Shown here piece after piece: positions 6,362 to 24,893 of a DNA stretch of 35,435 nucleotides (its first letter is position 1; each line of letters opens with the position of its first letter). The translations under genes were made by a program, and so were the position numbers. The DNA is from a virus, in IMG/VR virus record IMGVR_UViG_3300049718_000026, positions 1 through 35,435 of that record; one strand, written 5' to 3'. The notes beneath the pieces are model-generated. The model was not told the DNA's origin and searched no databases. It saw only the letters and a program-made list of their open reading frames with translations.

Positions 6362-7236
6362 GTTCACAGGGTGCTGACTGGTTTATCACTGGGGCTGCTG
6401 CTCAGTCTGCTCTTAACATTGACATTCTGCAGGTATGGTCCAGCCAGGGTCCAATTGACACTGTTGCTGGTGGCCAGGGTTCTGGTGGTATTGCATCATA
6501 TGCTGCTTTCTACATTCAGATCAATGGTAGTTCTGGTATTTCTTCGGGGCAGATCATCTTTGAAGGGTCAAATGATGGTGTGACATATGTGCCGTTGACG
6601 TTCTATGATGATGCTGTTGTGACTGGTGCCGCAATCAATTCTGCCATCTCAATTGCCGCCAGCACCAGCAGGTTCTTCTCTGGCAAGCTGACCTTCCGAT
6701 ATTTCCGGTGCCGTATCTCCACTGCATTTGTCGGCGGCACCATTCAGGCATTCTCCAGGCTGGTTGATGAGGACTACAACCCTAGGGTGACTGCTGTGGC
6801 AAACCAGACTGCAGCAAACATGCAGGTTCAGGCTTCCCTTGTGGCGGGGACTGCTCTGGCTGGCGATGTCGCCATTGAGTATCGAGCCAATGCCACTGGT
6901 GCTGCCACCCCTGCTCCTATCATGTCGCCTGTCACTCCTGCTGGTGCTTCGATAAAGGGCTCTGCTGGTCGTGTTATGGCAATCAATCTGCAGAACAGTG
7001 CTGCTGCCCTGCGGTCTATGAAATTCTTCAATGCCACCAGTGTGACTATGGGGACCACAGCAGCTGCATTCGAGGTGGATATCCCGGCTGGGGGCAGTGC
7101 TCAGTTGAACTTTGATGGTGGGATTGGTTTCGCGACTGGTATCATGTGGGCTGTCACTGCTGCGAAGGGACTGACTGACAACACTACAACTAGTCTGGCA
7201 CTTAATGATGTTTCTGGTGTTGTTGCTTACGCGTGA
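6358..7236 (+). CDS. putative head-associated structural protein
   Basis: 292 residues, Gly/Ala/Thr-rich and beta-like. The first half (YAAFYIQINGSSG, IIFEGSNDGVTYVPL, FRYFRCRIS) reads as a jelly-roll-type domain. The second half (RVMAINLQNSAAALRSMKFFN, then FDGGIGFATGIMWAVT) matches, from memory, a C-terminal module common in phage virion proteins. No enzyme motif. It overlaps the portal stop and sits before the minor head gene, so a capsid decoration or vertex role is plausible. The ribosome binding site GAAGGAG is clear. Confidence 0.6.
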   Translation: MSSQGADWFITGAAAQSALNIDILQVWSSQGPIDTVAGGQGSGGIASYAAFYIQINGSSGISSGQIIFEGSNDGVTYVPLTFYDDAVVTGAAINSAISIAASTSRFFSGKLTFRYFRCRISTAFVGGTIQAFSRLVDEDYNPRVTAVANQTAANMQVQASLVAGTALAGDVAIEYRANATGAATPAPIMSPVTPAGASIKGSAGRVMAINLQNSAAALRSMKFFNATSVTMGTTAAAFEVDIPAGGSAQLNFDGGIGFATGIMWAVTAAKGLTDNTTTSLALNDVSGVVAYA

Positions 7237-9959: not shown

Positions 9960-10922
9960 ATGGCCGCAATTAAAATGTTGTCCAGGAGGGGCGAGGCCAT
10001 CAAGGGTGCTCTGGTTGCCCACATTGCTCCGCTCCTGGCAACTGACAAAAAGCTCAAGGCTGGTGAGGTTGATGCGATCATCCTTGCCTGTGATGCAGCT
10101 CCATACAAGAAGCAGCGTCCAATCATCGCCAAGGCATTCACCGAGGCTTTCAAGCCCAGGCTGGCCAAGGATGATCTGGATCCTGACACTGTGAAGGAAC
10201 TGCTACTTGCGCTGGCCCAGGGCAGTCAGCCCAGTGACGAGGATGGCGAAGGTGATGAGCCTGAAGATGGCGACGACTCTGCTGTGGAAACTCAGGCTGG
10301 TGGTGGCATTCAGCCAGGTGACAATCCGGATGGTGGCACTCAAGGTGGTGGCACTCCTCAGATGCAGACTCCGGCTGTTCCAGAAGTTGATCACGGCAAA
10401 GCCATCTCAGACATCATTGCGAAGTCTGGTATGTCTCCTGAAGACCAGGAAGCATGCAATGGCCACATTCAGGCACTTGGTGCTCCCAAGCATGCCAATG
10501 ACAAGTTTCCGCCCAAGACGGGCAAGGAGGGCAATATGGGAGCTGAGACTGCTGCCAAACCAGATTTCCTCACCAAGCCTGCGATGGACGCAGCGCTGCT
10601 GAAGGTGAGTGCTGATACTCGCAAGGAGACCATCGCTGAGATGGCTGCTCGCTGGGAGGCTGTGAAGGCTGTGAAGCCGATTATTGGTGATGTCAACCCG
10701 ATGGCATTCGACACTGCCGATGCCATCTACCTGGCCGCTCTGGACCACGCTGGTGTCAAGCTTCCGAAGAATACTCATCCTTCTGCCTATGCCACTCTGG
10801 TCTCCATGCATCTGAGTGGTGCGGCTGAAAAGGCCAAGCAGGAAGGTCGTCGTCCTGCGATGGATGCCACTGTGGCAAAGACTCTGGCTGAACGCTACAA
10901 GAACGCCCCGAAGCTGGGTTAG
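9960..10922 (+). CDS. putative scaffold protein (C-terminal half of a DUF2213-type protein)
   Basis: 320 residues, acidic and helical, starting MAAIKMLSRRGEAIKGALVA after a perfect AAGGAGG site. Residues about 40-75 (ACDAAPYKKQRPIIAKAF) and the later TKPAMDAALLKV plus PIIGDVNPMAFDTADAIYLA regions match, from memory, the part that follows the protease domain in single-chain DUF2213 proteins. The middle is a Gly/Asp/Glu-rich linker. Scaffolds guide capsid shell assembly and are then removed, which fits the position directly before the cement and capsid genes. No protease residues are seen in this chain. Confidence 0.65.
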   Translation: MAAIKMLSRRGEAIKGALVAHIAPLLATDKKLKAGEVDAIILACDAAPYKKQRPIIAKAFTEAFKPRLAKDDLDPDTVKELLLALAQGSQPSDEDGEGDEPEDGDDSAVETQAGGGIQPGDNPDGGTQGGGTPQMQTPAVPEVDHGKAISDIIAKSGMSPEDQEACNGHIQALGAPKHANDKFPPKTGKEGNMGAETAAKPDFLTKPAMDAALLKVSADTRKETIAEMAARWEAVKAVKPIIGDVNPMAFDTADAIYLAALDHAGVKLPKNTHPSAYATLVSMHLSGAAEKAKQEGRRPAMDATVAKTLAERYKNAPKLG

Positions 10923-10933
10923 GAGGAAACCAA

Positions 10934-11923
10934 ATGCCTTTTCAGAGACAAGTTCCCATCAATCAGGCTCCTGGCTTCATTGGCGCGATCGCCTCGATGA
11001 ACCCGATTGCCACCATTGTGGCAGGGCCTGGCGGCCTGGTCGCAGGAACTGGTGGTGTGGCCGTTGGCAGGTTTGCCTGGAACACCTATCCAAACAGTGC
11101 CTCCACCACCATCAGTGGCAACCCCGGCCAGGCTACCAATCAATGCTTGACTGGCCGGGTCCCGGATGGTTTCATCGGCAACCTGCAGGAAGGCCTGATC
11201 ACCATCTGGCTGAACGACAGCACTCTGATTGTTCCTGTTGGCTACGGGGTGACGGAATACAATCGTGGTGACTTCTGGGCACAGAACAATATGTCCGATG
11301 CCCCCATGGGCGCAAAGGTCTTCGCCAATCTTCTTGATGGTCAGGTGACCTCTGGCGTCCCTGGTGCATTCCTCACCCAGGCTCCTGGCTCTGCTGCTGC
11401 TGGCTCTGCCACCCTTGTTCTTGGCAGCTATACGGTCATCATCACTGCCAATACCACTGGAACTTTCGCCCCAGGTCAGATCATCACTGGCGCTGGGATT
11501 CCTCCTGACACCACGATCGAGTCTGGCACCATTGGTGCCACTGGCACCTTCCAGATGTCTGCACCTGCCACCATCGCTGGTACTGGTGTGGCTGTCATTG
11601 CTGTGGCTCTTGAAGGGAATGGTGGTGCTACCTGCTCCAGTGTTACTGGTGGCACTGGCAGTCCCAACCTCACCATCAATGCTGTTCCTGTTGGCTCTCT
11701 CTATGTTGGCCAGCTGGTCCAGAACATTGCTGGCATTGCTGCTGGCACGTATATTTCTGGTCTTGGCACATGGAATGGCGCCACTGGCTATGTGGTCCTT
11801 AGTGCAAACCCCACTGCCACCATCACCGCACAGGCTTGCAATTTCACTCCATGGATCGAGACGAGCTGGTTTGTCAAGAGTGTGGGCAACATTGGCGATC
11901 TGATCAAGATCGGCGTCGTCTAG
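10934..11923 (+). CDS. structural cement (decoration) protein, Gp24-like, with inserted beta modules
   Basis: 329 residues. The N-terminus (MPFQRQVPINQAPGFIGAIA, then IVAGPGGLVAGTGGVAVGRFAW and YNRGDFWAQN) is typical of Gp24-type cement proteins that brace the capsid shell. The canonical C-terminal piece (PWIETSWFVKSVGNIGDLIK) appears only at residues 306-325. Between them lie two Gly/Thr-rich beta modules, at about residues 160-225 and 245-302, with motifs GQIITGAGIPPDTTI and GTYISGLGTW. This makes the protein much longer than usual. GGAGG precedes the ATG. C-rich third codon positions suggest high expression, as for the next gene. Confidence 0.8.
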   Translation: MPFQRQVPINQAPGFIGAIASMNPIATIVAGPGGLVAGTGGVAVGRFAWNTYPNSASTTISGNPGQATNQCLTGRVPDGFIGNLQEGLITIWLNDSTLIVPVGYGVTEYNRGDFWAQNNMSDAPMGAKVFANLLDGQVTSGVPGAFLTQAPGSAAAGSATLVLGSYTVIITANTTGTFAPGQIITGAGIPPDTTIESGTIGATGTFQMSAPATIAGTGVAVIAVALEGNGGATCSSVTGGTGSPNLTINAVPVGSLYVGQLVQNIAGIAAGTYISGLGTWNGATGYVVLSANPTATITAQACNFTPWIETSWFVKSVGNIGDLIKIGVV

Positions 11924-11935
11924 GAGGAATGAGAG

Positions 11936-12991
11936 ATGCGCAGAAATGAAGAAATTCAGTTCATCGAAGACCACTATGGTATTGTCTTCGATGAATGCAT
12001 GGACTTCTCTGATTCCAGTGAAGGCCAGCTCGCCGCGGATAGCATCATGGTTGATGCTGCCCCTACTTACTCCCTGCAAGCACAGGGTGTTCTCAACTCC
12101 AACTCTGGTGTGATGGCCTACATGGTCAACTTCATGGATCCAAAACTCCGTGAAGTGCTGGTTGCTCCTTGCAAATTCGCCGAGATCTGTGGCGAGACCA
12201 AGAAGGGTGATTGGACTGTCGACACCATGACCTTCCCCATCATTGAGTCTGGTGGTGACGTCAGTGTCTATGGCGATCTGAACAACAATGGACTGGTCAG
12301 CGCCAATGTGAACTTTGAACCTCGCCAGGTCTTCTACTACCAGTCCTTCACTCGCTGGGGCGATCGGCAGCTGGCTCGTATGGGGCTGGCCAAGATCGAC
12401 TGGGCTTCCCGCCAGAACATTTCCACTGCGCTGACGTTCGCGAAGTTCCAAAACAAGAGCTACGCTCTTGGCATGCCTGGCCTGGACAACTTCGGTCTGC
12501 TCAACGACCCGATGCTGATCCCACCGATCCTGGTGGCGAATGGCACCTGGGCCAGCACCACTGGTCTGAACATCTACCAGGATATCATGAATCTGTTCTC
12601 GCAGCTGGTTAACCAGACTGATGGCCTGGTGGACGAGAACACCAAGATGAAGCTGGCACTGTCTCCGTATGCTGCCACCAAGCTTGCTTCCGCCACCCAG
12701 AATGTCTATGGGAATGCGACGGTCCGTGAGCTCATGAAGACCACCTGGCCAAACATGGAAGTCATCACCGCCATGGAGTATGCGGTGGCTGGGACTGGTG
12801 GTGTACAGCTGGCTCAGCTCATCGCTGAGGAAGTTGGTGGTCAGGAAGTGGTCACCTGTGCCTTCACTGAGAAGATGCGGGCTCACAGCATCGTCCGAGA
12901 CACCAGCTCCACTTACCAGAAGAAGTCTGCTGGAACTGGTGGTGCTGTGGTCTTCGTCCCTGCTGGCATCGCTCAGCTGATTGGCATGTAG
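11936..12991 (+). CDS. major capsid protein (DUF2184-type)
   Basis: 351 residues, forming the icosahedral shell. The diagnostic stretch is FYYQSFTRWGDRQLARMGLA followed by KIDWASRQN and FQNKSYALGMPGLDNFGLLN, as in DUF2184-type capsids of the HK97-fold group. The N-terminal 35 residues are acidic and might be removed in maturation. AGGAGG lies about ten bases before ATG 11936. Codon use is C-rich at third positions, in line with very high expression. It follows cement and precedes the connector genes, and a hairpin stands after its stop. Confidence 0.9.
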   Translation: MRRNEEIQFIEDHYGIVFDECMDFSDSSEGQLAADSIMVDAAPTYSLQAQGVLNSNSGVMAYMVNFMDPKLREVLVAPCKFAEICGETKKGDWTVDTMTFPIIESGGDVSVYGDLNNNGLVSANVNFEPRQVFYYQSFTRWGDRQLARMGLAKIDWASRQNISTALTFAKFQNKSYALGMPGLDNFGLLNDPMLIPPILVANGTWASTTGLNIYQDIMNLFSQLVNQTDGLVDENTKMKLALSPYAATKLASATQNVYGNATVRELMKTTWPNMEVITAMEYAVAGTGGVQLAQLIAEEVGGQEVVTCAFTEKMRAHSIVRDTSSTYQKKSAGTGGAVVFVPAGIAQLIGM

Positions 12992-13005
12992 TCTGTTCAT
13001 GGTTA

Positions 13006-13041
13006 GGGGAACTCAGCGTCAGTGGCTCGGTTGAGTTCCCC
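13006..13041 (+). terminator. stem-loop after the major capsid gene
   Basis: GGGGAACTCA (13006-13015) pairs perfectly with TGAGTTCCCC (13032-13041). Two further inner pairs (G-T, C-G) leave a loop of about 12 bases. No T-run follows, so a strong intrinsic terminator is unlikely. A partial terminator, RNA-processing or mRNA 3'-end protection element is more likely, allowing more capsid than connector protein. Confidence 0.5.
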
Positions 13042-13075
13042 AGCAAACACGAGCCCAACCCATAGGGGAGTTACA

Positions 13076-13579
13076 ATGGCTAAGAAGCTTGAACCAGTTC
13101 CTGAGAACAAAGCAGTCACCACCAGCACTGTCTGGATTGGCTGCCGTCTGACCAGTGGAATCATCCTCGATGTCCGTGAGCTTGTCGATGTTGAATACAA
13201 TGGTAAGACGATCCAGCAATACGCAGACATCAAAGAGCGCAGAGTCTTGCGGGGGATTGGCAACTTCACGCTTCCAAACAAGGATCGCAAGTGGCAGCCC
13301 GCACAGAGCCTCCGGCTCACTGATGGCAATGCAACCTTGACCCTGCTGGACAAGGATTTCTGGGAAACTGCTTTGCGGCAGAATGCTGCTCTTCAGCAAC
13401 TTGTCAAGAAGAACCTGGTCTATGTCGCAGCCAGCAAGGATGCTGCCATTGAAATGGCGGATGAACTTTCTGAAGTCAAAACTGGTTTCGAAAAGTTCCA
13501 GTTTGAGAAAGATCCTGCCTTCAAGACCATCAAGCCACGAAATGACAAGGATGAAATCCCTATCCCTGATGGGAAATGA
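13076..13579 (+). CDS. putative head/neck structural protein
   Basis: 167 residues from ATG 13076, with GGGGAG eight bases upstream. The frame is open from 13022, but that part lies in the hairpin region. The sequence has VWIGCRLTSGIILDV at the N-terminus, LTDGNATLTLLDKDFWETAL in the middle and VKTGFEKFQFEKDP near the C-terminus. This pattern is common in proteins encoded directly after DUF2184-type capsids, with no defined function. A minor head or vertex role is inferred from position. Confidence 0.65.
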   Translation: MAKKLEPVPENKAVTTSTVWIGCRLTSGIILDVRELVDVEYNGKTIQQYADIKERRVLRGIGNFTLPNKDRKWQPAQSLRLTDGNATLTLLDKDFWETALRQNAALQQLVKKNLVYVAASKDAAIEMADELSEVKTGFEKFQFEKDPAFKTIKPRNDKDEIPIPDGK

Positions 13580-13587
13580 GGTAGGCA

Positions 13588-14010
13588 ATGGCAGTCTTCA
13601 TTTTTATTCCAGAGACATTCCAGGAGCAGTTTCCTGAGTTCACTAAGCAGGCTCCTGCTGTCTTGATGAACTATTTCACTATGGCATGTGGCATCCTTGA
13701 TAACACAGATCGCAGTAGGGTTGAAGACATTCCCCAACGTGGTCTTATGCTCAGTCTTCTCACTGCTCATTGCACCTTGATCTTTGGTGGTGATAATGAC
13801 TCTGCACCAGGCCAGCAGGTTGGTCGAGTGAGCTCTGCTGGTGAAGGGCCTGTCAATGTCAAGTTGGACATGGGTGAAAACACTACAAACAAAGCCTGGT
13901 ATGAGCAGACAAAATATGGTGCCATATATTGGCGTATTTCTGCACCTTACCGCTCAGCGTTATACATTGCTCCACCACCTCGCAGAAATAGATTCATACC
14001 TCAGACCTAG
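13588..14010 (+). CDS. DUF4054 head-tail connector
   Basis: 140 residues. DUF4054 proteins are head-completion or connector components found between the capsid and tail genes of myoviruses. Family features visible: FQEQFPEFTKQ near residue 11, RGLMLSLLTAHCTLIFGG near 52, GQQVGRVSSAGEGPVNV near 75 and WYEQTKYGAIYWRIS near 105. AGGTAGG precedes the start. The next gene follows after nine bases. Confidence 0.8.
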   Translation: MAVFIFIPETFQEQFPEFTKQAPAVLMNYFTMACGILDNTDRSRVEDIPQRGLMLSLLTAHCTLIFGGDNDSAPGQQVGRVSSAGEGPVNVKLDMGENTTNKAWYEQTKYGAIYWRISAPYRSALYIAPPPRRNRFIPQT

Positions 14011-14019
14011 GACTGAATC

Positions 14020-14577
14020 ATGGGTGTCTCAATCATTGGCGGAGAAAAGATGAAAGCCAAGCTGGCTGAGATGGCCGAAAAGCTTGGCCCAGGCAAGACT
14101 CTGCGTGTTGGATTCCTGGAAGGTGCTACATGTGGCAAGGACAATTCTGCGCCAGCACCACAGGTGGCTTTCTTCAATGAGTTTGGCACCATCGAACGCA
14201 CGCACAGTCTGAGCACTGTGGACACCACTTATGGTCCATTGCAGAAAGGCTCCCGTCGTGCCTCTGCATACAGACATATTCCTGCTCGTCCATTCTTCAG
14301 GAATATGATCCAGAAAAATAGCAAGAGCTGGGGAAAGTTGATTGCTGCTGCGATGAAGAAACTGAATTACAGTCTGATGGGCGCATTGAGCCTAACTGGT
14401 GAGGTTCTTGTTTCGCAGCTCCAGAAGTCAATTGAGGATTTTACGGACCCAGAGAATGCTCCATCGACAGTGAAGGCCAAGGGATTCAACAAACCACTGG
14501 AAGACTCCAAGAACATGAAGCGTGCTGTTGCATATGATGTGAAAGCTGGCTCTGAAGGGGAGGAGAAAAATGCTTAG
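14020..14577 (+). CDS. virion morphogenesis protein, HK97 gp10-like
   Basis: 185 residues. The core (KTLRVGFLEGATCG, VAFFNEFGT, IPARPFFRNMIQKNS, GEVLVSQLQKSIEDF, APSTVKAKGFNKPLEDS) is characteristic of gp10-like tail or neck completion proteins that join head and tail. Between NEFGT and IPARPFF lies an extra loop of about 30 residues (ERTHSLSTVDTTYGPLQKGS) where shorter relatives have only a few. The C-terminus overlaps the next gene by eight bases. Confidence 0.8.
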   Translation: MGVSIIGGEKMKAKLAEMAEKLGPGKTLRVGFLEGATCGKDNSAPAPQVAFFNEFGTIERTHSLSTVDTTYGPLQKGSRRASAYRHIPARPFFRNMIQKNSKSWGKLIAAAMKKLNYSLMGALSLTGEVLVSQLQKSIEDFTDPENAPSTVKAKGFNKPLEDSKNMKRAVAYDVKAGSEGEEKNA

Positions 14578-14941
14578 CCTCCACAGCCTTGCTTCCGGAG
14601 CATTGAATGGGGTTTTCCCCATGAAGATGGCTCTTGTGAAGAAATGCACTGGTGTGAAAACCAATCCAGACTATTCCAGGGTCCCAACATATGTTGAGTA
14701 TCCAGAAAAGGTTCGGGTGGTTGCCTTATCTGCTCGGGAACTTGAGCACATGTATGATCAAAATGTTCAAGGGATACTGCAGAAGGTGTTTCTGAGTGGG
14801 TTCTGGGAAGGAGTTGATCGGCGTAAGTCCACCGGTGGTGATCTGATCGTCATTGATGGTGTCACGTGGCTGATTGTCGAAGTCCTTGCTGCCTATCCAA
14901 CCTGGTCCGCAGTCTGTGTCCAGAAACAGGTGGATCCATGA
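14570..14941 (+). CDS. putative tail completion / collar protein
   Basis: 123 residues with a hydrophobic N-terminal helix region (LSLHSLASGALNGVFPMKMA), then VRVVALSARELEHMYDQNVQG and TGGDLIVIDGVTWLIVEV near the C-terminus. This arrangement matches a recurrent small structural protein between gp10-like and gp12-like genes in related myoviruses. A tail terminator or collar role is inferred from that context. GGGGAGG just before ATG 14570 serves as ribosome binding site. Confidence 0.65.
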   Translation: MLSLHSLASGALNGVFPMKMALVKKCTGVKTNPDYSRVPTYVEYPEKVRVVALSARELEHMYDQNVQGILQKVFLSGFWEGVDRRKSTGGDLIVIDGVTWLIVEVLAAYPTWSAVCVQKQVDP

Positions 14942-15078
14942 TGGCCTTCAGGACCACAGGGAAGCCACGCTGGATTCACAGCCACACAATCACACAGCCA
15001 AAGTATGTTTTACCAAACCCTGGCCACACTAGGCCTGATGCTGGCCAATATACTTTGTGCTTGAAGGGGGTGAAATGA
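14938..15078 (+). CDS. small hypothetical protein
   Basis: 46 residues, starting MMAFRTTGKPRWIHSHTITQ, basic and proline-containing with no hydrophobic segment. It overlaps both neighbours by ATGA-type junctions (start in the stop of the previous gene, stop in the start of the next), which supports translation. The start could be 14938 or 14941. A conserved companion of the neck genes is possible, but I do not recognise it. Confidence 0.55.
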   Translation: MMAFRTTGKPRWIHSHTITQPKYVLPNPGHTRPDAGQYTLCLKGVK

Positions 15079-15602
15079 ACTTCTCACCTTCCATTACAGA
15101 ATCTCAGATCATGACAGCAGTTGGAGACTGGGTGTGTTCCATCCTCGGCATACCAGCTGAAGATATGGTTCAAGCTCACGAAAATCGTGTCCCTTCTCCA
15201 AATGCAAATTATGTTCAGATGGACTCTATACTGGACACACGTCTGGCAACCAATGATGTTGAATATGATGGCGTAGCTGGCACAGTGACAGAGACCCAGC
15301 CAACCAAAGTTGGTGTTCAGCTTGATTGCTTTGGTGATTCTGCAAATGATTGGGCTCGTGTTATCAGCACCATCTTCAGGAGCAGCATGGCATATGATTT
15401 CTTTGAGTCATATGGGATTGCTCCCCTTTTCAACGACGATCCACGCCACATGCCTGTTATCAATGGTGAAAACCAATATGAGCTGCGGTGGGTGATCACA
15501 CTTTACTTCCAGTGCAACGTGGCCATTGTGGCTCCGATGCAGTTCATGACTTCCGTCGAGATTGGTGTGATTAGTGTGGATGCAAAGTATCCACAACAGT
15601 GA
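15075..15602 (+). CDS. neck terminator protein, gp12-like (LIC_12616-type)
   Basis: 175 residues from ATG 15075, with GGGGG upstream. Family hallmarks are AHENRVPSPNANYVQMD, a RLATNDVEYDG segment, VGVQLDCFGDSANDWARVIS near residue 87, and PLFNDDPRHMPVINGENQYE near 125 with WVITLYFQCN after it. Such proteins cap the neck/tail junction. It lies immediately before the sheath gene, as expected for the tail terminator of a contractile-tailed phage. Confidence 0.8.
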   Translation: MNFSPSITESQIMTAVGDWVCSILGIPAEDMVQAHENRVPSPNANYVQMDSILDTRLATNDVEYDGVAGTVTETQPTKVGVQLDCFGDSANDWARVISTIFRSSMAYDFFESYGIAPLFNDDPRHMPVINGENQYELRWVITLYFQCNVAIVAPMQFMTSVEIGVISVDAKYPQQ

Positions 15603-15613
15603 GGTAAATAGCC

Positions 15614-17335
15614 ATGTCCATTCCTGTTACTGCATTTGATACTGTCACACCAAGTGTGCTGGCAGGTGGAGGAAACGCACTGGCACTTGTCGGTCTGTTC
15701 CTCAGTGGTAGCCCACTGCTCCCCGTCGGAGCTGTGATGAGTTTTCCCAATTCTGCTGCTGTTCAAGCATACTTTGGGAACTATAACTCATCTTTCTCTG
15801 CATCTTTTGCCACCAATGTCATGACGGTCTCTGGCACTCCGACCAGTGTCTTGGCAGTTGGGCAGCAGGTTCAAGCTGCTGCTGGAGGGACTGCCCTTCC
15901 TGAAAACACCTACATCTCTCAGCTGGGGACTGGCACGGGTGGTGCTGGCACCTACATTCTCAGCACCACTCCTGGAACCATTGCCTCTCAGTCCTGCACA
16001 TCTCAGGCAGTTGAATCTGCGATGGCAACCACCTACTTCAGTGGCTTCACAAACAGCAATAAGAAGCCAAGCGCAATGCTGTTCTATCGCTACTGCTCAG
16101 CAGCAGCTCCGGCATTCTTGCGTGGTGCTTCCAATGCCCTGCTGACTCTGGCTCAGGTTCAGGCTATCAGTGCTGGACAGCTCAGTGTGGTGATTGACGG
16201 AGTAGTCAAGACTGCTACTGGACTCAACCTTGGTGCTGCTACCAGCATGTCAAATGCTGCAGCTCTTATCACTGCAGCTCTGAGTCTGTCTGGGACTGCT
16301 GCTGTCACCTATTCCAGTCAGTTCAATGCATTTGTGATTACGTCTGGAACCACTGGTGCTAGCTCCAGTCTGGCATTTGCTACCAGTTCTGCACAGAACG
16401 TAGCGAATCTTCTTGGCCTCGATGCTACTAGTGGTGGCACTCTTTCGCAGGGTTCCATCGCTATGACTCCTGCCACTGCGATGGCCGCATTAACCCTACT
16501 CACTCAGAACTGGGTTGGTTTCACCACCACATGGGAACCTGTGCTTGCAAACAAGGAACTTTTTGGTGCCTGGGTAAATGGCACTAGTGGCCAGTTCCTC
16601 TATGCTGAGTTCGATTCTGATCCAACCATCATTGGTCCAAACTCCAGTTACAGTGGGTTTGCTTACTGGGCTGACATCATCGGGAATGCTTCTGGTGTTG
16701 TTCCTTGCTATCAGGATCCTCTTGAAGCTGCTTTTGTCCTTGGTGCCATTGCAAGCATCGACTTCACCCAACAGGATGGCGCAGCCACCCTTGCGTTCAA
16801 GAGTGGGACTGGTCTGAGCGCGACCATCACCAATGGAACTGCGGCAGCAAATGCAATCGCCAACGGCTACAACTTCTATGGAGCGTGGGCCACTGCGGCC
16901 AACAATTTTAATTTCTTTTACAATGGGCAGATAACAGGTCCTTACAACTGGATTGATGCATACGTGAATGCCATCCAGCTGAATTCTGCTTTGCAGCTTG
17001 CGATGGTCGAACTCCTTGTGAACACCAAGTCCATCCCATACACCAACAAGGGTTATGGTCTGATCAAGGCTGCTTGCATGGATACAATCAATGCTGCCGT
17101 CAACTTTGGTTCCATCACTCCGAATGTGCCACTTTCTGCTTTGCAGATTGCGGAAGTTAATGCTGCTGCAAGTCTGGCCATTGATGGCATCTTGGCGACT
17201 CGTGGCTGGTATCTGCAAGTCCTTCCTGCCACTGCAACAGCCAGACAGAATCGCACCACTCCTCCATGCAGCCTGTGGTATATGTATGGCGGCAGCGTCC
17301 AGCAGATCAATTTGGCTTCTGTCTTCATCCCCTAA
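15614..17335 (+). CDS. tail sheath protein (DUF3383) with an inserted module
   Basis: 573 residues. The sheath polymerises around the tube and contracts to drive penetration. DUF3383 signs are AVMSFPNSAAVQAYFG near residue 40, KPSAMLFYRYCSAAAPAFLR near 151, WVGFTTTWEP near 297, and the C-terminal ITPNVPLSALQIAEVNAAAS plus ATRGWYLQVLP. Right after VQAYFG a module of about 65 residues is inserted (residues about 64-130, motifs MTVSG, VGQQVQAAAGG, YISQLGTGTGGAGTY). The canonical chain then resumes at ESAMATTYFSGF. A similar module occurs in the cement and baseplate J proteins. GAGGT precedes the start. Confidence 0.9.
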   Translation: MSIPVTAFDTVTPSVLAGGGNALALVGLFLSGSPLLPVGAVMSFPNSAAVQAYFGNYNSSFSASFATNVMTVSGTPTSVLAVGQQVQAAAGGTALPENTYISQLGTGTGGAGTYILSTTPGTIASQSCTSQAVESAMATTYFSGFTNSNKKPSAMLFYRYCSAAAPAFLRGASNALLTLAQVQAISAGQLSVVIDGVVKTATGLNLGAATSMSNAAALITAALSLSGTAAVTYSSQFNAFVITSGTTGASSSLAFATSSAQNVANLLGLDATSGGTLSQGSIAMTPATAMAALTLLTQNWVGFTTTWEPVLANKELFGAWVNGTSGQFLYAEFDSDPTIIGPNSSYSGFAYWADIIGNASGVVPCYQDPLEAAFVLGAIASIDFTQQDGAATLAFKSGTGLSATITNGTAAANAIANGYNFYGAWATAANNFNFFYNGQITGPYNWIDAYVNAIQLNSALQLAMVELLVNTKSIPYTNKGYGLIKAACMDTINAAVNFGSITPNVPLSALQIAEVNAAASLAIDGILATRGWYLQVLPATATARQNRTTPPCSLWYMYGGSVQQINLASVFIP

Positions 17336-17363
17336 ACCACCAAGCTCTTGAGGAGAAACTCAA

Positions 17364-17798
17364 ATGGCTTACACGATCTCTGACGCCAATGCGTCTTTCA
17401 CCCTGGCAATTACCAGCCTCTTTCCTGCTCCACAGAACCTGAGATATTTTGGCACTGATGATGCATTCGCAACGGAGAATGTGAAGCCCAGTGAAGTCAA
17501 GATGGGTGTTGACGGACACCAGAGTGTTGGTTATGCTTCTCACCCAACCATCATCAAGATCAAGCTCGCAGCTGACAGCCCAAGCAACCAGCTTTTTGAT
17601 CTCTGGTATCTTGCACAGAAGACGACCCTTGATGCCTACACTGCAAGTGCAGTCATCAAGCTTCCTAGCATTGGACAGGAATATATTGGCATCAATGGAG
17701 CACTGACTGGCTACATGCCTATGGCTCCTGCCAAGAAGATTCTGCAGGAACGCGAGTTTGAAATCACCTTTGAATCCCTGACCCCTGCTGGAGTGTAG
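17364..17798 (+). CDS. tail tube protein
   Basis: 144 residues. Myovirus tube subunits of this type stack as hexamers inside the sheath. The chain shows YTISDANASFTLAI at the N-terminus, ENVKPSEVKMGVDGHQSVGY in the middle, LAADSPSNQLFDLWYLAQK and finally AKKILQEREFEITFESL. All are typical of tube proteins paired with DUF3383 sheaths. TTGAGGAG precedes the ATG by about ten bases. Placed between sheath and chaperone in the usual order. Confidence 0.85.
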   Translation: MAYTISDANASFTLAITSLFPAPQNLRYFGTDDAFATENVKPSEVKMGVDGHQSVGYASHPTIIKIKLAADSPSNQLFDLWYLAQKTTLDAYTASAVIKLPSIGQEYIGINGALTGYMPMAPAKKILQEREFEITFESLTPAGV

Positions 17799-17799
17799 T

Positions 17800-18207
17800 A
17801 TGCGCAATGAAAAGGAAGTCGCCATCACTGAAGGTCGCGATGCAGGCAAGACTTTTCTGATCATTGAAATGTCTTCTGCGAAAGGAGAGAAGTGGGCTGC
17901 TCGGGCTCTTCTTGCCCTGCTCAAATCAGGCATCGAGATCCCGGATGAAGTTGTTCAGCAGGGAATGATGGGTCTGGCTGCAATTGGAGTCAAAGCCTTT
18001 GCTGGCATTTCTTGGGAACTTGCCGAGCCACTGCTTGATGACATGGTCCCAAGTTTCCGGTTTGTGATGGATTCCATCAGCCCCAATCCTCTGCTCAAGC
18101 ATCGTCCGATAACTGATGATGACATTGAGGATATCACCACCAGATTTCAGCTTCGCAAAGAGTGGATTGAGCTTCACTTTGGTTTTTTGTTCGCCGCCAA
18201 GTCGTAA
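17800..18207 (+). CDS. tail assembly chaperone, short form
   Basis: 135 residues. It escorts the tape measure during tube assembly. The chain reads RNEKEVAITEGRDAGKTFLI, then AEKW-like GEKWAARALLALLKSG, IKAFAGISWELAEPLLD-type residues (VKAFAGISWELAEPLLDD) and DIEDITTRFQLRKEW. These are characteristic of the first chaperone gene before the tape measure in this phage type. Near its 3' end it contains a slippery heptamer, so a fraction of ribosomes should make a longer form. ATG starts one base after the tube stop; GGAG lies about eight bases upstream. Confidence 0.85.
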   Translation: MRNEKEVAITEGRDAGKTFLIIEMSSAKGEKWAARALLALLKSGIEIPDEVVQQGMMGLAAIGVKAFAGISWELAEPLLDDMVPSFRFVMDSISPNPLLKHRPITDDDIEDITTRFQLRKEWIELHFGFLFAAKS

Positions 18208-18227
18208 AAATAAGTGACTTTGGCGGC
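18183..18227 (+). promoter_or_regulatory. programmed -1 ribosomal frameshift signal
   Basis: T TTT TTG at 18183-18189 is a canonical X XXY YYZ heptamer in the zero frame (codons GGT TTT TTG). Three bases later GCCGCCAAGTC (18193-18203) pairs with GACTTTGGCGGC (18216-18227) around a 12-base A-rich loop, with one bulged T. The hairpin would stall the ribosome on the heptamer. The spacer is shorter than the usual 5-9 bases, but the lowest pairs could open. Confidence 0.82.
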
Positions 18228-18407
18228 AAACACAAGGACAAACTTATAAATTATGCCAATGTTCCAGCAAGCATTGGCATAATAATAAGTAAGAATCTAG
18301 CAACTCTTGCTGAACTCCAAGAGATTTATGGTGTTGAAGATATGTATAACCTCCTTGAAGTTGCCATGGTTAACATGCACAATACCAATGTGATGAACCA
18401 AGATTGA
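18189..18407 (+). CDS. -1 frameshift extension of the tail assembly chaperone
   Basis: This 72-codon frame is open from the slippery site to TGA 18405-18407 but has no plausible start of its own. Slippage by -1 at 18183-18189 joins 130 residues of the short form to this part, giving about 202 residues, like the gpG/gpGT pair of lambda. The extension contains NVPASIGIIISKNLATLAEL followed by QEIYGVEDMYNLLEVAMV. This resembles the product normally encoded after the chaperone in related phages (pattern LATLEELQxxYxxxDxxxxLE). It ends seven bases before the tape measure start. The frame and heptamer were checked base by base; expression is inferred. Confidence 0.82.
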   Translation, partial: VRRQVVKISDFGGKHKDKLINYANVPASIGIIISKNLATLAELQEIYGVEDMYNLLEVAMVNMHNTNVMNQD

Positions 18408-18414
18408 GGTTGTG

Positions 18415-20370
18415 ATGAGTGGAACTGTGATAGATGCTTTTCTGGTCACACTTGGTCTTGATACCAAGGAGTTTCACACTGGTGTTGATCAGTCTAAACG
18501 AGATCAAGATGAGCTGCGCAAGAACACTGAGGAGAATGTTGGGAAGATGAAAGAGTCCTATCAAGGACTGATAGAGAAAGTTGGGCAGTTATTTGCTCTT
18601 CTTGCTGGTGGTCATGAGTTAAAGGAATTTTTTAATAGCACTCAAGAAAACGAAGTTGCCACTCTACGCTTATCTGAAATGATTGGCATGAGTGTTGAAA
18701 AACTAGGTCAGTGGCAAGGTGCGCTGGTTGTGAATGGTGGAAGTGCTGAGGGATTCAACCAGAGCATGAAGACAATGGGTGGGTTCCTGATTGACATTGA
18801 GAATCACCTACCTCGCGCAGAACGTGCATTGAAAGCTTTCAAGGCTGCTGGTATCAATCTTGAAATGGGCAAAAAGTCTGATATCCTGGAAGTTCTTGAT
18901 CAGGTCCAAGATCGTTTCAAAAAGCTTACTCTCATGGAAGGTCGTGAGCTTGGCAGGCACATGGGTCTTGATGAGAACTTTGCCAGAATGCTGCATGACT
19001 CAGATGACAGCCTCAAGGACCTTTTGCACACAATGGAAGAGATTGGCACTCCCACCAAGGAAGAGGCCGAGGCCATGGAGAGGCTGGAGCGGGCCCAGAA
19101 AACACTTGGAATTGTACAAGGTGCACTTGGTAGGATCATTGTGGATATGCTGGCACCAGCAATCAAGTTTGTTACAGATAAGCTCCTTGAATTTGCCATG
19201 TGGGCAAAGGACCATCCTCAGATTATCAAGACTGCATTCATAGGAATTGCTGGAGCCATCTCTGTTCTTGGAGCAGCAGCTGGAGCAGCTATGATACCGA
19301 TGCTGGGCATAACAGCTGCTCTTTCTGGAGTTGCTCTTGGTGTTGGGATGATTGCATCTGGCCTTTACATGTTGTGGCAGCAGAATGACAGCTGGCTTCA
19401 TGATCTTGTGACCTGGATCCAAGGTGTTGGAATGTGGTTTGAGATTGTGTGGGAGCGCATTGGCTCTACAACACTGATTGTCTTGAAGGCTCTCTGGGAG
19501 AATATCGAGAACATTGGAAGGATTGTTGCGGATGTTCTGGAGCTGGTGGTTTCTCTGTTCACAATGAATGGTGAACGCATTTCAAAAGCCTGGGAAAAAT
19601 TGACAGCAGATGTCAATCAGATGTTCAAGATGCTTTGGAATTCTCTGGTATTTGGTGCTGTGTTTGCATTCTATTCAATTGAAGCTGCTGCATCTGCATT
19701 ATGGAATAACATGAAGGCACCAGCAGAGGCTTTCTTCAACTGGGTCATTTCAAAATTCTCTTGGTTGAATGCTGCTGTGTCATTCATCAAAATGCTCAGC
19801 CCTAGTTCAATAAGCACAATTGGCGGAAAGGAAAGCACCCAGCCTGGTGGTAGATCATCAAGGGTGATGTCTATGGAGCCAGCAAATACATTGGCAGGCA
19901 CTCCCAGTTCTTCTTCTCCTGCAGCAGGGGTTTATGGCTCTTCTGCACACACCACCAGAGCAGGAAGCATTCAATCCACAGTAAAATCTCCAGTTCTTGA
20001 TATGCCAGTCCACAAGCAAGTGGCAGCAAATCATCTTGCTGCCATTGGAGGTCTGCCACCTGAAGTTCCTGCAGCCAAACCTGTGGCAGCCACTGCCACA
20101 CAGAACCAGCTCCTGGATCCCACTAGCAAAGAGGCAGCAGCCTTCAACAGGCAGTTCTCATTCATGGGTGCTACCCCACACGCTGCGATGGCAGCTCCAG
20201 CAGCTCAGCCATCTGGTCCAAGCACAACTGACAATTCAAAAAGGGAAGTTAGTGTTGGTCAGGTAAATGTCTATGCTGCTCCTGGAGCAGATGCTCAGAG
20301 CATTGCGGATACTACAGCCAGAACAATCCGTAACACAGGTATGGCCGATCAAGTTGATGGGGGGATCTGA
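18415..20370 (+). CDS. tail tape measure protein
   Basis: 651 residues, setting tail length. At about 1.5 angstroms per residue this predicts a tail near 100 nm. The N-terminus (SGTVIDAFLVTLGLDTKEFH) is typical of tape measures. It is followed by charged coiled-coil stretches to residue 270, hydrophobic segments at about 275-345 (TAFIGIAGAISVLGAAAGAA and ALGVGMIASGLYML), more helix, and from about residue 475 a Ser/Pro/Ala-rich low-complexity region. ATG 18415 is preferred over GTG 18412 for its spacing to GAGG. Relatively short for a myovirus tape measure. Confidence 0.88.
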   Translation: MSGTVIDAFLVTLGLDTKEFHTGVDQSKRDQDELRKNTEENVGKMKESYQGLIEKVGQLFALLAGGHELKEFFNSTQENEVATLRLSEMIGMSVEKLGQWQGALVVNGGSAEGFNQSMKTMGGFLIDIENHLPRAERALKAFKAAGINLEMGKKSDILEVLDQVQDRFKKLTLMEGRELGRHMGLDENFARMLHDSDDSLKDLLHTMEEIGTPTKEEAEAMERLERAQKTLGIVQGALGRIIVDMLAPAIKFVTDKLLEFAMWAKDHPQIIKTAFIGIAGAISVLGAAAGAAMIPMLGITAALSGVALGVGMIASGLYMLWQQNDSWLHDLVTWIQGVGMWFEIVWERIGSTTLIVLKALWENIENIGRIVADVLELVVSLFTMNGERISKAWEKLTADVNQMFKMLWNSLVFGAVFAFYSIEAAASALWNNMKAPAEAFFNWVISKFSWLNAAVSFIKMLSPSSISTIGGKESTQPGGRSSRVMSMEPANTLAGTPSSSSPAAGVYGSSAHTTRAGSIQSTVKSPVLDMPVHKQVAANHLAAIGGLPPEVPAAKPVAATATQNQLLDPTSKEAAAFNRQFSFMGATPHAAMAAPAAQPSGPSTTDNSKREVSVGQVNVYAAPGADAQSIADTTARTIRNTGMADQVDGGI

Positions 20371-21077
20371 TGCCTGATGGATTTGCCCTGCCAAGTCTTC
20401 CTGTATCAAACACACCTAGTCTGAATTTTCAGCTACCAGACCTGCACCTGCCCAATGCTCCGGCTGTTCCATTCCTGCACCCAGCATCATTGCCAGCACC
20501 AAATATTGCTCCTCCTGCATTCGCAAACATCTGGGGAATTTATGATGCAAGCGGCAATAAGCTGTTTGATGTTGATACCTGCCTCAGTGCTGATTTCAAA
20601 GATCCCTCGAAAGTTAGCGAATTCCCTGTTGAGGATGGATCATTTACCACATACAACAAAGTCAAAGAGCCATTGGATGCAAAAATTAGGCTTGGTGTCG
20701 CAGGAATGAAAAAAATTGCAGTTGCTTTAACAGCTTTGCGTGCTGCTGTGGCATCCGTAAATCTTTATGATATATGGACGCCAGAATACATTTATCAGAA
20801 TTGCACTGTTGTTATTGGATCTTATAAAAGAACAGAAAAAGAAGGCAGGAATCTGCTTGAGGTGCTTATTGATCTCAAAGAAGTTAGGCAGGTTGGGACT
20901 CAGTATGCAACCAGTGTTCCCATCACCAGCAAAAAGGCTTTGAAGTCTTCATCTTCAAGCAAGGTAAGCAGCGGAAAGGCTCAGACAGCTACACCAACAC
21001 CAAGCCTTCAGAACATGACTACGTCACAGGTTGCCGCTCTGGCCAAGCAGCAGGCAGCTAAGGTATTTGGAGGCTGA
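20370..21077 (+). CDS. putative baseplate protein
   Basis: 235 residues. The first 50 residues are Pro/Leu/Asn-rich (LPDLHLPNAPAVPFLHPASL). The core then reads WGIYDASGNKLFDVD, KVSEFPVEDGSFTTYNKVKE, VNLYDIWTPEYIYQNCTVV and GRNLLEVLIDLKEVRQV. The pattern F(P)VExGxFxxYxKV is common in proteins encoded after the tape measure of contractile-tailed phages, likely connecting tube and baseplate hub. The C-terminus is Ser/Thr/Lys-rich. The ATG shares a base with the tape measure stop and is preceded by GGGGGGA. Confidence 0.7.
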   Translation: MPDGFALPSLPVSNTPSLNFQLPDLHLPNAPAVPFLHPASLPAPNIAPPAFANIWGIYDASGNKLFDVDTCLSADFKDPSKVSEFPVEDGSFTTYNKVKEPLDAKIRLGVAGMKKIAVALTALRAAVASVNLYDIWTPEYIYQNCTVVIGSYKRTEKEGRNLLEVLIDLKEVRQVGTQYATSVPITSKKALKSSSSSKVSSGKAQTATPTPSLQNMTTSQVAALAKQQAAKVFGG

Positions 21078-21078
21078 T

Positions 21079-21381
21079 ATGTTGTATTGTGATTTGGAAG
21101 TCGGTGGAGTCCCAATCTGGTATGCGGTTCCGTGCTTGAATGGAGTTTCAATCAATTCACATCCATATCTTGCATTCGATGGAGATCTGATTTTTATAGA
21201 TACACAAGGTGCAAATGATCCAGCTTATGATGGTCTTTCTGATCGATATGTTCTGCTTTATATTCAGGCGGGTGCAGATGATTTGCAGATATCATTGCAA
21301 GCAGTTCCATCACAGCAGATTAGTGTGACCCTTGGATCTCAGAATTGCACAATATCACTTTACACACGGGAGGTTCTGTGA
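21079..21381 (+). CDS. DUF6983-like baseplate protein, apparently circularly permuted
   Basis: 100 residues from ATG 21079, directly after a GGAGG site. The chain starts with MLYCDLEVGGVPIWYAVPCL, then YLAFDGDLIFIDTQGANDPA and SDRYVLLYI, which in the DUF6983 family as I recall it form the middle and end. The strand pair that should open the family (IPLxxxPSQxxxVxLxGQxCxxxLY) is instead at the C-terminus, as ISLQAVPSQQISVTLGSQNC followed by TISLYTREVL. Position between tail and hub genes matches family context. The stop overlaps the next GTG start as GTGA. Confidence 0.65.
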   Translation: MLYCDLEVGGVPIWYAVPCLNGVSINSHPYLAFDGDLIFIDTQGANDPAYDGLSDRYVLLYIQAGADDLQISLQAVPSQQISVTLGSQNCTISLYTREVL

Positions 21382-22238
21382 GTTTCAGTCAGAAAATCCT
21401 GCAAGTAAGCATCGTCAAAGGCCACGGAAATTTTGACTCTGGTGGCAACACCAAAATCATGTCTGGTCTTAGGGTTAAATGTGAAATTGAAAAGAATGGT
21501 CATCCAAGCAAGAATAAAGTTTCACTCAAGATCTATGGGATGAAACAGGATGACATGAATGCTTTAACCACATTGTCATTCAAACCTATGGCAGTGGTCA
21601 AAAATACAATTCAAGTAATGGCTGGTGATTCCAATGGAATGCAGGTGGCATTCCAAGGTGACATTACTGGTGCATGGGAAATTTATAGCTCTCCCCCAAA
21701 TCTTTATTTCCATGTGGAAGCTCTGTCTGGCTATTATCACTCTATCGCAGTTGTTACACCAAAGGGCTATCCTGGTTCTGTGTCGGCAGCCAGCCTGATG
21801 AGTGGCCTTGCATCACAGATGAATCTTGCGTTTGAGATGGATCCTTCAAATCCAGTCACCACACAGCTGAGCAGGCCTTATCTATGGGGAACGCCATTCC
21901 AGCAGGCTGCTGCAATTGCTGCTGCTGCCAACATCGAATTTGGAATAGATGATGATGTTTTATATATAGCCAACAGAGGAAAAGAGCGCAAGGGAACTGC
22001 TCCGCTGGTCTCAGTTGATACTGGGCTGAAAGCATATCCAACATTTGATAAAAAGGGTATACGCTTCAAAACCCTATACAATCCAGCAATTCTTTATGGT
22101 GGACTGGTTGTAGTTAAATCAGCAATACCAATGGCGTGCGGCACCTGGAGGGTGCATAAATTGCGTCACGATCTTGAAAGTGAAACACCTGGTGGTATCT
22201 GGGAAAGTGAAGTCTACGCCACACCACAAGGGAGCTAG
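21378..22238 (+). CDS. putative baseplate hub protein
   Basis: 286 residues. GTG 21378 is chosen because GGGAGG lies about six bases upstream and it overlaps the previous stop by GTGA. The longer frame from 21345 lacks this. The core reads VKGHGNFDSGGNTKIMSGLR, YGMKQDDMNALTTLSFKPMA, FQGDITGAWEIYSSPPNLYF, VEALSGYYHSIAVV, IEFGIDDDVLYIANRG and ending LRHDLESETPGGIWESEVYA. This matches hub proteins of T4 gp27/Mu gp44-like role in related phages. It would form the ring that carries the spike encoded next. Confidence 0.75.
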   Translation: MSFSQKILQVSIVKGHGNFDSGGNTKIMSGLRVKCEIEKNGHPSKNKVSLKIYGMKQDDMNALTTLSFKPMAVVKNTIQVMAGDSNGMQVAFQGDITGAWEIYSSPPNLYFHVEALSGYYHSIAVVTPKGYPGSVSAASLMSGLASQMNLAFEMDPSNPVTTQLSRPYLWGTPFQQAAAIAAAANIEFGIDDDVLYIANRGKERKGTAPLVSVDTGLKAYPTFDKKGIRFKTLYNPAILYGGLVVVKSAIPMACGTWRVHKLRHDLESETPGGIWESEVYATPQGS

Positions 22239-22241
22239 CCA

Positions 22242-23024
22242 ATGCCACAAGATGAAACAATTTTCCCTCAGCAGCAGCCAACATCTGGCAATGGAGATGT
22301 AAACGAAACTTTATTTGCAATTCAAAGGACTCTGGCCCTTATGAATATTGCAACTCAGGTGAAGGTTGTGGCAGTCCACACTTCAGGGAACACATCACCT
22401 GTAGGAACAGTAGATGTTATGCCGATTGTGAATGTTATTGATGGCTCGGGTAGATCCTGGCCTCATGACACAATATATGATGTTCCTTACATCCGCATTC
22501 AGGGTGGCATCAATGCTGTGATTTGTGACCCTCATGCTGGCGATATTGGCCTGTGTGTCTTCTGCGACCGAGACCAGTCTGCAGCCCAGAAGACAGGAGC
22601 CCAGTCCAATCCCGGCTCCGGTCGCCGATTCGATCTTGCTGATGGCATTTACATTGGAGGATGGAATTCGCAAGTAGTTCCCCAGAATTATGTTGTAATA
22701 AATCCTGATGGTTCCATTGCTGTGCTGTCAACCGGAAGGATTGATGTTACTGGAACTACTTGCGAATTTCATTGCCCTGTTGTTATGGATCAGACTTTGC
22801 AGGTTGTTGGCAACACCACACTGGAAGAAAATCTGACTGTTTTGGATAATGTTACTCTGGGCGGAAGTCTTTCTGCGACAGGCTCAACAGGCTCTGGAAA
22901 TGCTACGCTTGCTGGCAGCCTAACTGCCACTGGCAATGTTAAGGGTGGAACAGTTGATCTTGAAACTCATGTCCATACCAATGTTCAGAGTGGTAGCAGC
23001 AACACTGGGGGGCCAGTGGGATGA
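22242..23024 (+). CDS. baseplate spike protein (Gp138/gpV-type)
   Basis: 260 residues. The central spike punctures the outer membrane. An OB-fold-like N-terminal domain (about residues 35-140, with GTVDVMPIVNVIDGSGRSWP and DPHAGDIGLCVFCDRDQSA) is followed by beta-helical repeats (TLQVVGNTTLEENLTVLDN and GSLSATGSTGSG). The tip motif HVHTNVQSGSSNTGGPVG has the HxH arrangement that binds iron in known spikes. GGGAG precedes ATG 22242. Stop overlaps the wedge gene by ATGA. Confidence 0.88.
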   Translation: MPQDETIFPQQQPTSGNGDVNETLFAIQRTLALMNIATQVKVVAVHTSGNTSPVGTVDVMPIVNVIDGSGRSWPHDTIYDVPYIRIQGGINAVICDPHAGDIGLCVFCDRDQSAAQKTGAQSNPGSGRRFDLADGIYIGGWNSQVVPQNYVVINPDGSIAVLSTGRIDVTGTTCEFHCPVVMDQTLQVVGNTTLEENLTVLDNVTLGGSLSATGSTGSGNATLAGSLTATGNVKGGTVDLETHVHTNVQSGSSNTGGPVG

Positions 23025-23383
23025 GCACTTTAGGTCTTAACTATAACACATGGGATCTTGCTCTTGATGCTTCAGGAAATATGAGCATTATTTCTGGAGG
23101 ACTCGACATTGCTCAGGATGTTGCCAGTGCCATCAAATTGTTTCTTGGAGAACTTTATTATGATGTGACTGCTGGCATTCCTTATTTCAATAGTGTGTTT
23201 GGACCATCTTATTCCTCAAGCACAGTTCAGAACCTTATTCAGAATGCAGCCCTTACTGTTCCAAATGTAGTCACTGCGATAGCCACCATTACCAATTTTG
23301 ACTATACCATGAGGACTCTGACTGGGACAGTGGACATTACCACCACAACAGGCCAGACCATCACAGTAAATTTTGGGGGATAG
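23021..23383 (+). CDS. baseplate wedge protein, gp25-like
   Basis: 120 residues. The family joins sheath and baseplate. Signs are WDLALDASGNMSIISGG and DIAQDVASAIKLFLGELYYD near residues 30-50, then AGIPYFNSVFG, as in W/gp25-like proteins (pattern A.(D)V..A...F.GE..YD...G(I/V)P...). C-terminal strands read LTGTVDITTTTGQTITVNF. ATGA overlap with the spike gene. Confidence 0.85.
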   Translation: MSTLGLNYNTWDLALDASGNMSIISGGLDIAQDVASAIKLFLGELYYDVTAGIPYFNSVFGPSYSSSTVQNLIQNAALTVPNVVTAIATITNFDYTMRTLTGTVDITTTTGQTITVNFGG

Positions 23384-23384
23384 A

Positions 23385-24893
23385 ATGGCCACCTTCGTAA
23401 TTTCGTATGTCACAAATGTTCCTTCTCCAACACTTGGAACCACAGGTCTTGTTGTCCCAGATGAAGCATCTATTCTGTCTGGTGTTGTTGCAGACATGCA
23501 GGCAGCATATGGTGGATCTCTGAATCTCAATCCTGGTATATCTTCAACACTTTCGACTGCACAAGGTCAGCTGGCCACAAGTCTAACTGCCATCATAGCC
23601 AGCAAGGATAGCATGATGGCACAATATGTTTCACAGCTTGATCCAAAATATTCTCAAGGAAGAATGCAAGATGCAATTGGTTATCTTTACTATTTAACCA
23701 GACTGCCTGCCATCAGCACTCAGGTTAGCTGCACTTGCTCTGGTGCAGTTGGGACTGTGATTCCAATTGGTTCTCAGGTGCAGGACACTGCTGGCAATAT
23801 TTATTCTTGTATTGTTGGTGGGACAATTGGTTCTGGTGGAAATGTAACATTGACATTTGCCAATGTTGTTGCTGGTCCAATTGTTTGTGCACCAGGATCA
23901 GTAAATACCGTGTACATTACCATCCCAGGCTGGGATAGTGTCACCAATGCTTCAGCAGGCATCACAGGACAGAATGTTGAAAGTTCTATTGCTTTTGAAG
24001 CTCGCCGTGAAGCCTGTATACCACTGAACTCTATTGGACAGGCTTCAGCAATTCGTGCAGCAATTCTTAACACAGGACAAGATCTCACTCCAATGCAGGT
24101 TCCACTTGATGCCAGAGTTGTAGAAAACTACAGTGCTTTCACACAGATCATTGGTGGAATAACTGTTCAGCCATCATCTGTGTTCATCTGTGTTGCTGGT
24201 GGTAATGCAACAGAAATAGCTGCTGCTATCTGCTCAAAGAAAGATGTTGGGTGCAATTACACGGATGCAGCTTACTTCACTGCAAGTCTCACTGCTTTGA
24301 GCACAACCATGACTGTTAGTGCCATGACCTATGGTGCAAACTCTGGATACATAGCAGCAGGTCAGCAGATCAATTCTCCTTCTGGCTCGACAATTGCTGG
24401 TGGACCTTACACGATAGTCCAACAGCTTGGAGGAACACCTGGAGGCATCGGGACTTACCAGGTTGCTGCTTCAGGCATAAGCACAGGACCTGGCTTCTCA
24501 TCGCAGGCCCTTAGCTCTGCTGTTGTGGTTCAGGTCCCTGACACGGGTTATGCAATGCCTTATCCTATCTACCAGGTTGATTGTGCTCAGGCAGTTGACA
24601 CACCAATCAATGTTCAGGTAACTCTTGCAACTGCCACCAACCCTCCAAGCACAGCACAGACTACTTTGCAAAATGGCTTGGGAGATGCTTTCACTGGTGC
24701 AGATGGTCTTGCTGCTGCCACAATTGGAGGAACATTCTACAATTCTAGACTGTATGCCCTTGTGAGTGCATTGCTTCCTGGTGTTGGTGTCCTTGGTGTG
24801 CTAGTTGGATCTGGAACACCAAGCAATGTCTATCAGACATTAAACATGAACCAATATCCAGTTCTTGGAACTGTGACTGTGGTGTATGCATGA
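23385..24893 (+). CDS. baseplate J-like protein with an inserted module
   Basis: 502 residues from ATG 23385, with GGGGG upstream. J-like proteins are baseplate wedge components. The N-terminal body contains AQGQLATSLTAIIASKDSMM and GRMQDAIGYLYYLTRLPA. The middle has a TGxxxES motif (AGITGQNVESSIAFEARREA). After AAAICSKKDVGCNYTD a module of about 80 residues is inserted (about 296-378, with FTASL, MTVSAM, AGQQINSPSG, YTIVQQLGG and GTYQV). The canonical body then resumes with VQVPDTGYAMPYPIYQVDCA. A similar module lies in the sheath and cement proteins. C-terminal ending is typical of the family. Confidence 0.85.
   Translation: MATFVISYVTNVPSPTLGTTGLVVPDEASILSGVVADMQAAYGGSLNLNPGISSTLSTAQGQLATSLTAIIASKDSMMAQYVSQLDPKYSQGRMQDAIGYLYYLTRLPAISTQVSCTCSGAVGTVIPIGSQVQDTAGNIYSCIVGGTIGSGGNVTLTFANVVAGPIVCAPGSVNTVYITIPGWDSVTNASAGITGQNVESSIAFEARREACIPLNSIGQASAIRAAILNTGQDLTPMQVPLDARVVENYSAFTQIIGGITVQPSSVFICVAGGNATEIAAAICSKKDVGCNYTDAAYFTASLTALSTTMTVSAMTYGANSGYIAAGQQINSPSGSTIAGGPYTIVQQLGGTPGGIGTYQVAASGISTGPGFSSQALSSAVVVQVPDTGYAMPYPIYQVDCAQAVDTPINVQVTLATATNPPSTAQTTLQNGLGDAFTGADGLAAATIGGTFYNSRLYALVSALLPGVGVLGVLVGSGTPSNVYQTLNMNQYPVLGTVTVVYA

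Follow-up and report, generated by a model that had tools for sequence, protein, structure and literature searches.

Homologous beta-rich modules inserted into the capsid cement, tail sheath and baseplate proteins of a contractile phage

The stretch of DNA analysed here (the window, taken at its full length) is a 35,435-base virus record (IMG/VR record IMGVR_UViG_3300049718_000026, a virus of bacteria) with the structural gene order of a contractile phage. Three of its virion proteins, a capsid cement protein, the tail sheath and a baseplate J protein, carry inserted Gly/Thr-rich segments (Table 1). The cement protein scores 50.8 bits against the XM1 gp53 family (PF23982, cut-off 27), with residues 4-143 and the C-terminal end making up the core of an XM1 gp53-type decoration protein. 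The sheath scores 346 bits against DUF3383 (PF11863, cut-off 34.9) and is homologous to the sheaths of E217 and Pa193, while the J protein, whose ATG start at 23385 was read from the sequence, scores 28.9 bits against Baseplate_J (PF04865, cut-off 21.1). A 693-aa open frame on the minus strand (10919-13000) overlaps the cement and major capsid genes in antisense and is probably a by-product of codon composition, and a 292-aa ORF among the head genes (6358-7236) has no Pfam or PHROG match above cut-off.

Table 1 Genes and inserted modules in the window.
Feature	Positions	Strand	Supporting evidence
Cement/minor capsid gene, 329 aa	10934..11923	+	Pfam XM1_gp53_minor_capsid E 2e-13; phrog_2122 E 3e-33
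Whole cement insert	about 11369-11851	+	
Module copy A, cement	11381..11611	+	Outside-only HMM i-E 6.5e-6; 0/5000 shuffles; six predicted strands
Module copy B, cement, in tandem with A at one insertion site	11612..11845	+	Outside-only HMM i-E 3.1e-10; six predicted strands
Tail sheath gene, 573 aa, DUF3383 family	15614..17335	+	Pfam DUF3383 E 5e-103; phrog_205 tail sheath
Sheath module, site 1, directly after VQAYFG	15782..16006	+	HMM i-E 2.3e-18; AlphaFold2 pLDDT 93.3
Baseplate J (wedge) gene	23385..24893	+	Pfam Baseplate_J E 9e-7; phrog_6 baseplate wedge E 4e-40
J module, between KKDVGCNYTD and AVVVQVPDTGYAMPYP	24267..24518	+	HMM i-E 2.7e-4; 0/5000 shuffles

A first-pass annotation had placed four related segments in these three proteins, at positions that proved right to ~50 nt. 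It had correctly set the sheath insert right after VQAYFG, but its start there was ~20 nt late. The order of motifs it proposed fits the sheath and J copies well and the cement copies only loosely, the latter reading GATGTFQM and GATGYVVL where GGxGTYx[LV] had been expected.

The module is compositionally extreme: Gly, Thr, Ser and Ala account for ~62% of its residues, charged residues for 2.5% (10.6% in the rest of the carrier proteins), Trp occurs five times in 7,975 residues, and a single Tyr is conserved. Such a bias, along with the weak scores of some raw pairwise comparisons, would fit ordinary low-complexity Gly/Thr-rich linkers that are alike in composition only. Pairwise sequence alone is indeed no proof of kinship, because shuffle Z scores are high when the sheath insert is compared with cement copy B (10.8) or with J (6.9) and reach only 1.0-3.9 in the remaining pairs. 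As the segments are rich in the same few residues, a family HMM was therefore built from 10 copies in other viral contigs only and searched against all frames of the window, where it matched exactly three proteins, namely cement (two copies), sheath and J, and none of the other Gly/Ser-rich ORFs. For each of the four inserts, 0 of 5,000 composition-preserving shuffles reached the real score. Profiles of the J site, cement A, cement B, sheath site 1 (one sequence) and sheath site 2 (from other phages), compared with hhalign, aligned at 95.8-99.5% probability in every pair, and cement copy A also matches the module region of phrog_21413 (E 6e-4). HMM, shuffles and profile-profile alignment thus agree on the relatedness originally proposed: the four segments are copies of one ~70-residue module and share common descent. 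The shuffles and the confident six-strand fold predicted for the sheath insert rule out a low-complexity artefact, and we regard the linker explanation as extremely improbable.

Insert-free family members are known for all three proteins, showing that the segments are not ordinary parts of their families. The cement and J segments are absent in Acetobacter phage phiAO1, Pseudomonas phage Amjad_SA, Aeromonas phage 4_D05 and Pantoea phage PA-1, the sheath segment is absent in the sheaths of Amjad_SA, 4_D05 and PA-1, and the flanks rejoin cleanly in these insert-free homologues; each window segment is a clean insertion. In cultured phages, the homologues examined do without the module, which is thus dispensable for the virions of those phages. 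Among close relatives (L002-L004), a sheath 52% identical to that of the window passes from YFG straight into the next helix, while both cement modules are kept at the window's site and, in L003, whose J gene is fully covered, so is the J module (49 bits to the family model). The sheath insert is therefore a lineage-specific gain or loss. The G+C content of inserts and host genes differs little. Searching 50,697 phage records by tblastn with single modules gave no match, but the low-complexity filter may mask such queries, and this negative does not argue for absence; longer sheath and cement queries retrieved relatives whose length leaves no room for the insert, or matches that break off where the modules start.

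AlphaFold2 modelling of the sheath insert from 111 aligned copies gave a confident six-stranded structure (pTM 0.82). The same strand order appears twice in a moderate model of the full cement protein (pLDDT 72), so that the sheath insert and both cement inserts, far from showing different folds, have one predicted strand order and fold class. The cement core model superposes on the cement proteins of T1, Pa193, Pam3, XM1 and E217 (Z 13.5-14.6); its inserts, at residues 150-226 and 228-305, separately match EF-Tu-domain-2-like barrels, and the core aligns across them. For the sheath insert, the best solved match is chain 8eci_1 of Arthrobacter phage Bridgette (Z 7.6, TM 0.70, 67 of 76 residues aligned); behind it rank the barrels of EF-Tu, IF2 and aIF2-gamma as well as phage tail proteins (Z 5.9-6.7), with matches of the EF-Tu domain 2 type covering 67-73 of the 76 residues. 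Since the Z values for the sheath insert all lie under 8, a barrel-type beta domain is the probable, not a proven, fold class. The inserts are predicted to fold independently. Chain 8eci_1 is probably the Bridgette capsid cement protein; dimeric capsid cement proteins have been described for that phage (PMC13033339). Although it is the closest solved fold, the likeness may reflect only a common arrangement; 8eci_1 is a free-standing protein of 124 residues, and its sequence does not match the module profile. The module sequence has no convincing match in the PDB, and predicted viral structures containing the module include a P22 gp10-like protein, a protein named HK97 capsid, a pectate-lyase protein and giant-virus collagen-like proteins.

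Searches with natural copies found the module in 137 carrier proteins. The 84 non-redundant carriers include DUF3383 sheaths (13), XM1 gp53 cement proteins (12), neck terminators (11), E217-type cement proteins (3) and Baseplate_J proteins (3), along with gateway gp29, SU10 adaptor, head-closure and fibre proteins and many that belong to no Pfam family. Carriers fetched later add a tail fibre, a Dit-like protein, a GDSL esterase and a sheath of another PHROG family (L023). Carriers that can be assigned to a family belong to the virion, and no terminase, portal, tail tube or replication protein was found among the recognised carrier families. Two or more distinct carrier frames occur in 25 of 30 records, three or more in 18 and four or more in 12, counts that describe carriers only because the records were chosen for carrying the module. 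The module is rare in cellular genomes, being present in only 2 of the 150 searched, which were from a single bacterial order, and a Paraburkholderia prophage holds seven modules within ~20 kb, spread over five proteins with cement, neck, sheath and J among them.

The modules could serve mainly to stabilise the virion, with each barrel packed onto adjacent cement, sheath or wedge subunits in the manner of accessory capsid proteins. The Bridgette match would suit such a role, the tandem cement copies are conserved at one site, and cement of the XM1 gp53 type carries its insertion in the C-terminal region, which makes the trimer contacts of XM1 (PMC10457771). However, the lattices that this one module serves (capsid trimer, sheath helix, baseplate and fibres) are unrelated, making a conserved interface hard to imagine, and homologues without it still form virions. 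We therefore consider stabilisation as the main role unlikely.

At least seven insertion sites are in use: one in cement, two in DUF3383 sheaths and four in J. The single cement site holds two or three tandem copies. The window's sheath site, after YFG, is unused in every other fetched sheath, the others using a site near residue 225. In J, modules lie near residues 252, 293/382 and 440 and at the C-terminal end, the site near 440 resting on one sequence at a contig end. In one record (L043, 3236-4693) an in-frame stop directly before the J module splits baseplate J into two ORFs, and a match in that record contains one TAG; recoding, a sequencing error or a broken gene would explain this.

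Modules at the same site in different phages are on average 57% identical, whereas those in different proteins of one genome are 47% identical, equal to the background of unrelated sites (48%), indicating that copies are inherited in place and were not recently spread. At the DNA level, the longest match between the sheath insert and the other inserts is at most 12 nt. Both results bear out the earlier view that the copies are old and of low DNA identity, and leave duplication within a genome unsupported as their source. Several ancient gains, followed by inheritance in place, are the most likely history of the module. A near-neutral passenger, that is, a self-folding domain that spreads by recombination and persists in loops since it is harmless, would account for the many sites and host proteins, for an uncharged composition dominated by Gly, Thr, Ser and Ala, and for the coming and going between close relatives, as in the sheath of L002-L004. 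This explanation sits poorly with the retention of same-site copies across distant phages, with a Gly, Thr and Tyr core that is nearly invariant and with the several copies maintained per phage, and we judge it quite improbable.

Scans of the window proteins and carriers found no Pfam model for the module, and an NCBIfam scan of six carriers likewise found none. PHROG 21413 (unknown) matches 74 of the 84 carriers and PHROG 38233 (tail fiber) 61, through regions at about 395-470 and 553-630, respectively, that correspond to the module; both are whole-protein clusters, and neither defines nor names it. No description or name of the module was found in the papers searched, and the family and its whole-virion spread appear not to have been described before. 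That one domain can be common to several virion proteins is a concept known from the promiscuous Ig-like domains of tailed phages, treated for sheath proteins (PMC9230969) and for Hoc (PMC10385173). Like these, the module is a small beta domain in or on several kinds of exposed virion protein, variably present between relatives, and weak accessory adhesion is the role proposed for the Ig-like domains. In contrast to them, the module is encoded in frame inside its host gene and occurs on the head, neck, tail and baseplate of a single virion. Its best fold matches are barrels and the Bridgette capsid chain, with no Ig sandwiches among the structural neighbours listed, though a fold outside that list may also fit. 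Ig, Big and fn3 Pfam models give no hit in any of the three window proteins at E up to 1, and a Big_2 search of the record came back empty. The module is most likely a family other than the phage Ig-like domains. An extra domain is also inserted in the contractile sheath of XM1, but it is reported to be FliD D3-like and unique to that phage (PMC10457771), and differs from the module.

Taken together, the data are best explained by a mobile beta domain, ~65-75 residues long and able to fold by itself, which tailed phages place in loops of their outer structural proteins, an account we hold to be likely. The N- and C-terminal strands would lie near each other, allowing the module to drop into a loop with the host fold undisturbed. 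Extra domains of sheaths generally point away from the tube (PMC9230969) and gp53-type cement is located on the capsid surface (PMC10457771), from which we infer outward display; in the window virion proteins, exposure at the particle surface is probable. Virion symmetry would then repeat the module many times over head, tail and baseplate. It is fairly probable that this unnamed, virus-specific domain covers the outside of contractile phage at every level, from capsid cement and neck to sheath, baseplate and fibres, was inserted independently at seven or more sites and forms a virion-wide coat in many uncultured phages.

As to what such a coat does, we tentatively suggest contact, weak but multivalent, with the surface of the host or the matrix around it, by analogy with the adhesive role proposed for phage Ig-like domains (PMC9230969; PMC10385173). 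Contact of this kind might keep the virion close to cells until it binds its specific receptor. Next in likelihood would be shielding of the surface or stabilisation of subunits. Glycan binding, raised in the first-pass annotation, is a possibility. The module does not resemble a classic carbohydrate-binding module, as it is missing the aromatic sugar-stacking residues (Trp, Tyr or Phe) and is nearly devoid of Trp and charge. Its low charge and scarce Trp also leave room for roles in stabilisation or as a passenger.

If the mobile-domain account holds, the module would be a second, non-Ig family among the few domains that phages move between structural proteins, and we know of no other such domain documented across head, neck, tail and baseplate in a single particle. 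In environmental phages, its simple profile accounts for sheath, cement, neck and baseplate proteins of unusual size. The module also shows where the structural proteins of contractile phages naturally accept insertions. It also makes testable whether a whole-particle coat alters the sticking of phages to cells or their survival outside them.

Other repetitive or unusual genes were seen alongside the carriers. The long tail fibre of the window (27201-29858) contains two beta modules of the HGL/TGD type (residues 408-489 and 554-625), another recurrent phage kind; hhalign aligned them with the present module at only 16-19% probability and over the first third only, and we do not claim kinship. 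Downstream, at 29894-31534, a 546-aa ORF consists of degenerate Ser/Gly/Ala repeats with a pattern like SGS.SG.HG.AGS; it matches nothing in Pfam or PHROGs, and its DNA shows no tandem repeat of that length. In Acetobacter phage phiAO1 (L108), a gene annotated as catalase (15391-17514) lies on the opposite strand within the tail gene cluster.
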